Below are positions 32,501 to 52,950 of a stretch of DNA of 64,000 nucleotides, piece after piece. How positions within the stretch are numbered: position 1 is the first letter of the stretch; every line of letters starts with the position of its first letter. The position numbers and the translations under genes are program-made. Origin of the DNA: Enchytraeus crypticus (Eukaryota > Annelida > Clitellata > Enchytraeida > Enchytraeidae); assembly GCA_905160935.1 (NCBI GenBank), contig CAJHZI010000195.1, forward strand, positions 179,501 to 243,500, written 5' to 3'. The notes under the pieces are model-generated. The model made no database searches, was not told where the DNA came from, and saw only the letters and a program-made list of their open reading frames with translations.

Positions 32501-35500
32501 CTGCACGGCTGTGGACCAGAATATCTCTCTTCTGACCTTCAATATGCTTCTTAGGGTCGTCAGCGTCACGGTCTTCGGTCAGACGGTTCGGGTCTACTCA
32601 TTCGGCCGAGAACAAATGCCTCGCTAGGTGATCGAGCCTGGCCTTCTGCCTCAGCTTTCGTTTGGAATGGTATGACACCGAATAGTCTAAGACATGAGTC
32701 TAATTATTTAGCTTTCCGTCGTGGTGTGAAAACATTATTGTGGTCGCGTAGTTTTTCGACATGAAAGTACTACACACGAATGCATATTTATTATAAGTAT
32801 TTTGTATATGAAGTCTGAAATGAGTGTTGCTGGATAGCGTAAAGTTCCGCTCATATGTAGAAATTTTTACTAGTTTAGATATTAATTTAAATGTAATTGT
32901 TATTTAGCTCATGATTAAAATTGAACTCTTCCAGTAAAGTAGTCTCGAAGACCGAGTTCGGCCATGACACTGCTATATAAGTTTTCGTTGTTAATAATAA
33001 TAATAATAATAATAATAATAATAATAATAATAATAATAATGACCATGACCGCCCAGACGTGGAACAGGCACGGCACTTAGAGAAGAAGTCAGTGTTAGGT
33101 TTGTCAAATTTGAAGTTGGAGGGAGGACTCTGACTTTTAGCTGAAGTGGTTTGCAAGCTAAGAGGGTCGACCCAAGGCAGCGGGGTCAGGATGTCGATTG
33201 AACATTTTAAAATTAAATTTATAAGCATAATTTATAATTGCGCTGAGACGATGATTTGTTGGCATGAGTGACTGAAATACCAAAGAAACGAAGTTTCTCG
33301 ACTCCCGGTAATAAAATAACACATCTTTTAATTATTTTTACCGGAAATTACAACAGTGTTACTAATTAAAGACACAGTCACAACTCTTGATATTAGTTGA
33401 TGGTCAAAAATGGCAAAAATTGTTGTTTCTTTGCAAAATTCAAAGATAGAAATATTTTATGCAAAGCCTATTCAACAATTCGAATGCATACATCACGTAT
33501 CTATAAGTATATACAGGTTTATATCAACAACTCTACAACAACAACCCTAGAAAAACCATTATCTTCTATGGAATATTGTGAACCAGCGTTCAGACTTAGT
33601 GAAATTTCTTAGTGGAAGGATATTTCTTAGAAAAAACTCAGTGAAATTATTGGAAGGAAATTTATGAGAAAAAGAAACCATTATCATTATTACTACTCAG
33701 TTAATGCAATGGGAGGTTAATGTAGATATTTTAATGAAAGGTAGGAAAAACAAACTCCAGGCTAAGGTCCTTTAGTTAATTACACTGATATCTGGCAAAA
33801 CATCCGGCTTACTACAAAACAGTTAAAACAAGAGCGTTACGTGCACCTTTATGCACTAAGTCATCATCATCATCATCATCATCATCATCATCATAATCAT
33901 CATAATCATCATAGTCATCATCATAATCATCATAATCATCATAATCATCATAATCATCATCATCATCATCATCATCATCATCATCATAATCATCATCATC
34001 ATCATCATCATCATAGTCATCATCATCATCATCATCTTCTCTTGAATCCCAGTTTAACTAGGGTCGGGATACGAATAGACTCTCAAATCCGCTCTGTCCT
34101 ACATCATATCATCAGTCAATCCCCTATTTGACTCAGTCACCGGTTGGTCAATTCTTCAATCAACCTGGACACAACACGGGGAGGTATTTATGCACTAAAT
34201 ACCTCCAAGTAATAAATAATGTCATAATTACTGGAAAACTTTTAGGAAACTGACGTTAACCTTTGCTTTATCAGCTTTATAATTTCGTTAGTTAAGGATG
34301 CATATTAAAGTAAGAATTGACTGTGACGACTGACCTACTGTGAGAGTCACTGGACGAAGAATACTTGGCAGAACTATTCTGTTGATTTGAACTCTGACCT
34401 GTGACTTCTACTAATGCAGGGATAGTAAACAATGGATGAACGGAAGACTCGTTATCAGCATCTGAACATACAAACCACAGATTACAATTATCCTACGGGA
34501 CAGCATATAATAATAATAATAATAATAACAATAATAAAAATAATAATAAGTATATTTATAAAGAACTGCTCTATGCTAAATGCAACAGTAGCGCTGAATG
34601 GATAGTGAAGGTCAAGTAGCCTGGTGGTATAATGCCACAATCGGTGTAGCGACTAGAACTCTGCAAATCTGGAGTATGAGCGACCAATTGGTATAAAACA
34701 CAAGATTCATCACCACATGGCTACAAGTCTCTTCACTGTCATATCTGCGTCAGTCGCCTTTTACGAACCGTGTTCAGTTGTCGGTAGGTTCAATTCTCAA
34801 TTTTCCCGAATCAACTCGAGGAATGTGTAGACCATGGCTTATCAATGATAATGTTCAGCACCTTCATACATAAAATCTACATCGTGTGCATTATATGCAT
34901 CTAACTGTACTGTGTAACTGAACTATTTTATTAGCTATATTAACAGTTATAATTAATAACTAGAAATAGTTCTAGTGGTGGTAGCTAGATAAGGCACTAT
35001 GTGCCCTCTCCGATCGTCTTTATAATTTGATTTTGATTTAAATATTTGATGTATTGATGTAAAGTCACTGATGTGATTCCTGTATGATGTGATTTCTTTC
35101 TCTTATTTTTTGATTACAATAAAAAAAGTTTTCCATATACACGAACAGTACAAAAATAACAAGTCACAACTCTGATTTTTAGCACTAATACAACAGCTTC
35201 AACAATTTCCATGCTTCTGGGCAAAATTGAAGGACAATGAAGTGCGATATATTAAAATGAAGTGAGAGGTAAATTAGCACGCTAGTTGTCTGTCTAACAC
35301 ATCCTGTATTATATTCTAAAAATTAAAACCCTGAAAGTCACTTCAATATTTCAATAATAATAATTTAATGTTCATAGCACCATAGCACATTAAGTAAACA
35401 CCTGGACGTATCATTAGCGTCCCTAAACTGCAGTTAATATCCTCTAACTTAGTGGCTGGCAATTTCATAATGGTGGGGTTTAGCGGGATTTAGCGCAGTC

Positions 35501-52950: not shown

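Follow-up and report, generated by a model that had tools for sequence, protein, structure and literature searches.

Why should several splice junctions of a single gene each lie in a minisatellite of their own? The question is raised by AP4E1 (AP-4 complex subunit epsilon) of the annelid Enchytraeus crypticus (assembly GCA_905160935.1). The gene lies in a stretch of 64,000 nt on contig CAJHZI010000195.1 (179,501-243,500), hereafter the window, and unless another contig is named feature coordinates are window positions. A preliminary description of the locus proposed that one process had acted at several junctions of this gene. In this study, we mapped the AP4E1 arrays with Tandem Repeats Finder (TRF) and self-BLAST, and sampled exon ends of other genes across the assembly (524 Mb, 802 contigs). 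We found that such arrays are about as frequent at other exon ends as in AP4E1, that they concentrate at exon edges, that their copies keep intact decoy splice sites, and that arrays near exons are more diverged than those farther away.

Both programs bore out the junction-containing units of 54, 35, 42 and 55 bp described earlier at exons 4, 10, 12 and 16 (Table 1). GT is kept in 14 of the 15 extra copies of the donor array at exon 12; as this exon also carries an acceptor array, there is an array at each of its ends. At exon 4, the TRF interval (49499-49765) ends 21 bp before the exon, and BLAST copies cross the junction by 17-21 nt. The end of exon 10 is matched at 85-93% by four copies of the 35-bp array, which now lies about 1.4 kb from its exon, with reverse-transcriptase sequence in the intervening DNA. 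Weaker versions had been described at exons 11 and 13. The first stands as a weak partial copy, consisting of two collinear fragments only (20 nt at 90%; 21/25 nt, a score reached by 2/500 shuffles). The second falls away, since the similarity at the exon 13 donor begins 3 nt into the intron and so does not cross the junction. At all five array junctions the extra copies lie on the intron side, as had been claimed. No match of at least 36 bits links arrays of different AP4E1 junctions, which agrees with several independent local arrays rather than one mobile repeat; the exon 5 acceptor has a weaker match in the array at exon 4.

By self-BLAST, 5/32 AP4E1 junctions are crossed by a local repeat. 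Among the 11 minisatellites of the gene (period of at least 20, TRF score of at least 60), three run without a break across a junction, where 0.8 would be expected (p = 0.047), and adding the exon 4 acceptor and the exon 10 donor by homology brings the number to 5/11. AP4E1 by itself is modest to weak statistical evidence, and the gene was selected because of its arrays; a genome sample was therefore needed. The assembly yielded a single copy of the exon 11/12 region, and so no second haplotype with which to compare array lengths.

For the genome sample, we used exon-sized Pfam matches to adaptins/coat proteins (PF01602, n = 36), class-I tRNA synthetases (PF00133, n = 24) and dynein heavy chains (PF12774, n = 96). 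The window's own gene and 10 dynein matches were excluded, so that 145/156 matches were taken; 122 of these lie within 43 merged stretches totalling 195,370 bp. Exon ends were located with a simple splice-site score. A junction was called positive when a same-strand repeat no more than about 1.5 kb away extended at least 6 nt to both sides of it and scored at least 36 bits, low-complexity repeats being excluded. By this definition, 33/233 predicted exon ends, on 20/32 contigs, were positive (acceptors 22/115, donors 11/118). Four of the 33 were doubtful and were removed: one was a simple repeat, one was the second of two calls of the same place, one was a donor lying 55 nt from where the match ended, and one was a weak acceptor. 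This left 29/229 exon ends (7/63, 8/48 and 14/118 by family). Counting well-supported junctions only gave 29/194. Units of the junction arrays were 23-160 bp long, and in the largest sampled case an acceptor lies in a 52-bp unit that recurs in 26 further copies. AP4E1, with 5/32, is thus typical of the sampled genes and not unusual. Since its rate is similar to that of the three families, what appeared to be the oddity of one gene looks like a genome-wide habit, present at about 1 in 7 or 8 sampled exon ends.

We then asked whether arrays overlap junctions more often than chance would allow, as the preliminary description had suggested. When each TRF array was treated as one event, 21/109 spanned a junction against 6.8 expected from random placement of one unit (p = 1e-5), and 19 did so after the removals. 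An earlier count on overlapping loci (13/151 arrays against 4.5 expected) is superseded by this merged-stretch count. Covered positions overcount long arrays because an array grows by multiplying its own unit rather than by extending over adjacent sequence. With each covered position weighted by 1/copy number, the background was 4.0% (binomial p = 4e-10 against the junction rate). The claim of overlap above chance therefore holds for arrays as events; it hardly holds for raw coverage, to which we return below.

The distance profile, computed with each array collapsed to one unit, placed this excess at the exon edge. Array density was about 2/kb between the points 30 nt into the exon and 25 nt into the intron; it was 1.6 at distances of 25-50 nt and about 0.4-0.8 farther out. 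Counting each array once, the zone from -30 to +50 nt, picked after the profile had been viewed, held 33 arrays against 7.9 expected, a ratio of 4.2 (bootstrap over 32 contigs, 2.6-6.2). The ratio was 3.1-4.2 across six filter settings and 3.8, 6.6 and 3.4 by family. Ten of the 33 near arrays overlap the exon; arrays extending more than 30 nt into an exon are excluded by the zone. Arrays that only abut an exon (n = 22) were similarly common to those that span a junction (n = 19), which places the relevant zone at the exon edge and not at the splice site as such. Sequence context alone is a poor explanation of the pattern, as splice-like sequences within introns were barely enriched (4.3% acceptor-like and 6.6% donor-like, against the weighted background). 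In an earlier sample of 54 loci, repeat coverage was 3/104 at 45 nt inside exons and 14-27/104 at intron offsets. This low coverage within exons fits the earlier suggestion that only duplications hidden by splicing remain, which may account for part of the pattern.

Arrays could build up at exon edges by more frequent birth or by longer survival, and we compared arrays of different TRF match percentage as a guide to age. Old arrays (below 85%) near an edge numbered 17 against 2.7 expected (p = 6e-9). With each array counted once, the near/far counts were 7/23 for young arrays (at least 92%), 10/17 for the middle class and 16/18 for old ones. The median match was 85 for near and 90 for far arrays (p = 0.035), and 84 for arrays only abutting an exon against 90 for far ones (p = 0.016). 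For seven spanning arrays from which the exon copy had been subtracted it was 81, compared to 91 for far arrays with roughly three copies or more. As the excess is about 2-fold in young and about 6-fold in old arrays, survival beside exons probably outweighs junction-specific birth.

On balance, and with moderate confidence, we regard the arrays as widespread tandem duplications that are tolerated at exon edges and accumulate mainly through longer survival there. Short tandem duplications would arise widely in gene DNA, presumably at a high rate, and grow into minisatellites. Where the unit straddles an exon edge, the extra copies would land on the intron side and be removed with the intron by accurate splicing, so that such a duplication is tolerated and leaves decoy splice sites in the array. 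The resulting array would be a 'mirage' in the sense used for amphioxus. The build-up at exon edges would then come mainly from exon-adjacent DNA outlasting deep-intron DNA, with a smaller, about twofold excess at birth.

An alternative, in line with one of the causes named in the preliminary description (replication slippage or repair at junctions), is that exon edges are mutational hot spots, at which replication, repair or co-transcriptional splicing favours tandem duplication. The 4.2-fold edge excess with its sharp fall beyond 50 nt, and the roughly double frequency at acceptors compared to donors before the removals, are what such a process could produce. The abutting arrays, as common as spanning ones, do not point to the junction itself; the little-enriched splice-like intron sequences likewise speak against a hot spot, and young arrays show a weaker excess than old ones, contrary to its simplest prediction. 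We consider hot spots a rather unlikely main cause.

Several observations weigh against survival as the main cause, or against the enrichment on which it depends. Young arrays near an edge are themselves in about twofold excess (8 against 3.4 expected, p = 0.024), so a birth bias is possible; an alternative young class (best hit of at least 93%) was found at 7/233 junctions against 1.05% in the seed-corrected background. The direct comparison of young with old arrays reached only p = 0.07 (Fisher). Because arrays homogenise, TRF match percentage records age only imperfectly, and near and far zones were compared without control for transposon content. The enrichment depends on counting seeds, not positions: raw coverage was 33/233 at junctions (14.2%) and 306/2481 (12.3%) at positions at least 300 nt from matched exons, and in the first sample 17/104 at junctions and 93/540 in introns. 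Background positions may include unmatched exons or intergenic DNA. Since the -30 to +50 zone was picked from the density profile, p values computed for it are post hoc, and the sampled junctions are homology-based predictions from genomic sequence. Taken together, the data suggest that longer survival beside exons and a smaller, about twofold birth bias probably both contribute.

Chance, mispredicted junctions or assembly error might also yield such counts. The exon ends rest on homology, 4/33 positives proved doubtful, and in amphioxus the PGBD5 copy number differed between two assemblies, according to the accessible text of PMC3902484. However, when applied to AP4E1 the splice-site score recovered 30/31 junctions, although it started from cores that stopped 12 nt short of the known ends. 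The well-supported junctions gave 29/194, the three families agree, and most copies differ from each other in sequence. An artefact of this kind is improbable.

To describe the decoys, we scored copies at 28 positive junctions; in addition to the four removals, the donor of a possibly duplicated exon on contig C775 was omitted. There (G000:C775:75313-75798) a 160-bp tandem repeat contains two occurrences, about 167 bp apart, of a short match to a dynein exon together with its donor, so that an exon, and not just a junction, may have been duplicated. AG or GT was kept, within 1 nt, in 83/96 copies with a mean identity of 88% (58/70 without the largest array). A purge of decoys was therefore not seen. 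True and decoy sites showed no clear difference in splice score (1.85 vs 1.10, p = 0.13), and at 16/25 junctions a decoy scored at least as high as the true site. Copies selected as splicing regulators, either reinforcing a splice site or acting as decoys, would be expected to keep these dinucleotides. Nevertheless, the retention is only a little above the approximately 77% expected from 88% identity alone, and we think such selection very improbable.

Minisatellites at splice junctions have been reported in amphioxus as 'mirages', in Adh3, the globins BflGb6 and BflGb9, troponin C and PGBD5 (accessible text of PMC3087553 and PMC3902484), and the lancelet Adh and troponin C mirages are stated there to generate no aberrant mRNAs (PMC3902484). 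A recent gain of introns through tandem duplication of exonic AGGT (the Rogers model), put forward for amphioxus mirages and globin introns in the accessible part of PMC3087553, likewise involves tandem duplication of splice signals, but is the least probable explanation here, because the units contain the end of a pre-existing intron as well as exon, which means that the intron predates the duplication, and self-BLAST of AP4E1 found no pair of exonic copies bounding any array-bearing intron. The arrays described here resemble the mirages as far as those sources describe them. In both, the repeat unit spans the exon-intron boundary (here at 5/32 AP4E1 junctions and 29/229 exon ends elsewhere), acceptors and donors are both affected (here 22 and 11 before the removals), and splice dinucleotides are kept in many copies. 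They differ in that the host is an annelid, a cephalochordate host being where mirages were reported and not part of their definition, and in that a multi-gene rate and an exon-edge distance profile were measured, here from genomic sequence alone.

The genome itself gave 93 innexin matches, a large family, nine of which cover essentially the whole profile in one open frame; cephalochordates are not known to have innexins, and an amphioxus origin of the window was rejected on this ground. There were also five matches to the erythrocruorin linker family, which is an annelid family; the best reached 4.8e-11, and all were above the cut-off. Both sets of matches indicate an annelid.

A further comparison is offered by a minisatellite in the human gene IFI6 (6-16), the report of which is said to have Turri as first author. 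By its title in the reference list of PMC2572611 (NAR 1995), this minisatellite supplies several splice donors; the case concerns one gene only. In an earthworm metallothionein gene, the accessible text of PMC12783039 describes intron-1 minisatellites, unexplained exon-4 duplications and a duplicated exon unrepresented in transcripts. The likeness lies in an annelid host and intronic minisatellites; the difference is that those repeats are not presented there as splice-junction repeats and that one exon copy is inverted. In the literature searched, most subscription papers lying outside it, we met no genome-scale count and no non-chordate case of such arrays. What is new here is the occurrence of mirages outside chordates and their multi-gene rate, whereas single amphioxus genes were already known.

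Mirages had been described gene by gene in amphioxus; these results supply a multi-gene rate, measured in a distant animal. A broader generalization is possible, which we put forward only tentatively: exon-edge minisatellites may be a general, long-lived trait of some animal genomes, with about 1/7 of exon ends bearing decoys about as strong as the true site, with raised birth at edges, and with a spliceosome that chooses among near-identical copies by position alone. The arrays provide numerous natural cases in which to study the choice of one splice site from a set of near-identical neighbours. In such a genome, gene prediction may produce false exons or misplace exon borders. The age contrast makes birth and survival of intronic repeats testable by comparison of relatives.

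The AP4E1 model contains 16 GT-AG introns, is in frame and encodes 746 amino acids with an Adaptin_N match of 1.4e-71. Its top PDB match was 9u9i_E, AP-4 epsilon-1 (E = 2.7e-112, query residues 1-568). No ear domain was matched in the model, and only a few fragments were checked further downstream. In the PDB alignment, three of the five array junctions (exon 4, exon 10 and the exon 12 acceptor) carry no insert. A 9-residue insert stands a few residues past the exon 12 donor, within modelled exon 13, and exon 16 falls outside the aligned part.

Table 1. The AP4E1 model and the repeat features at its splice junctions (window positions).
Feature	Position	Strand	Description
AP4E1 (AP-4 complex subunit epsilon) model	34290..52950	-	17 exons; exon 17 and 3' end tentative
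Exon 4 acceptor array	49458..49787	-	54-bp unit including the acceptor and about 17-21 nt of exon 4 (exon 4 = 49405-49478)
Authentic exon 10 end and donor	43247..43279	-	exon 10 = 43261-43370; homologous to the 35-bp unit
Reverse-transcriptase fragment between exon 10 and its array	41917..42597	+	RVT_1 3e-12
Exon 10 donor array	41685..41840	-	35-bp unit, 4.5 copies; last approximately 19 nt of exon 10 and approximately 13 nt of intron
Exon 11 acceptor	41321..41545	-	degenerate partial upstream copy of exon 11 sequence; fragments 41526-41545 and 41321-41345
Exon 12 acceptor array	40855..41004	-	42-bp unit, 3.6 copies; last copy = exon 12 start (exon 12 = 40752-40867)
Exon 12 donor array	40259..40774	-	34-bp unit (28-bp variant), 16 copies; largest, absent from the preliminary description
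Exon 13 weak case	39473..39508	-	copy of intron +3..+38; 89% over 36 nt, offset 404
Exon 16 acceptor array	35800..35906	-	55-bp unit, 1.9 copies, 86% (exon 16 = 35675-35807)

Near the 3' end of the AP4E1 model, positions 34507-34700 are part of a dispersed repeat. A query of 34335-34700 gave at least 52 genome matches, 40 of 1,633 candidates having been scored, and the longer ones were about 170-200 bp with 87-94% identity. A 35-nt end of a dispersed element occurs in three copies (4940-4974, 39193-39227 and 43011-43045), two identical and one with 3 mismatches (0/100 shuffles). A dispersed-repeat search of bacterial and viral collections gave no match.

Elsewhere in the window, EF-hand gene fragments lie at 4567-5491 and 7703-7861 on the plus strand; two exon-like pieces code for similar EF-hands, perhaps a duplicated exon. 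On the minus strand, a probable gene with an RNA-recognition motif (RRM_1, 2.2e-7) lies between 12 and 19.2 kb, where TRF listed no array with a period of 20 or more. A tRNA scan of the window returned none. The longest array in the TRF listing of the window is a 16-bp minisatellite of 58.6 copies at 60479-61424.
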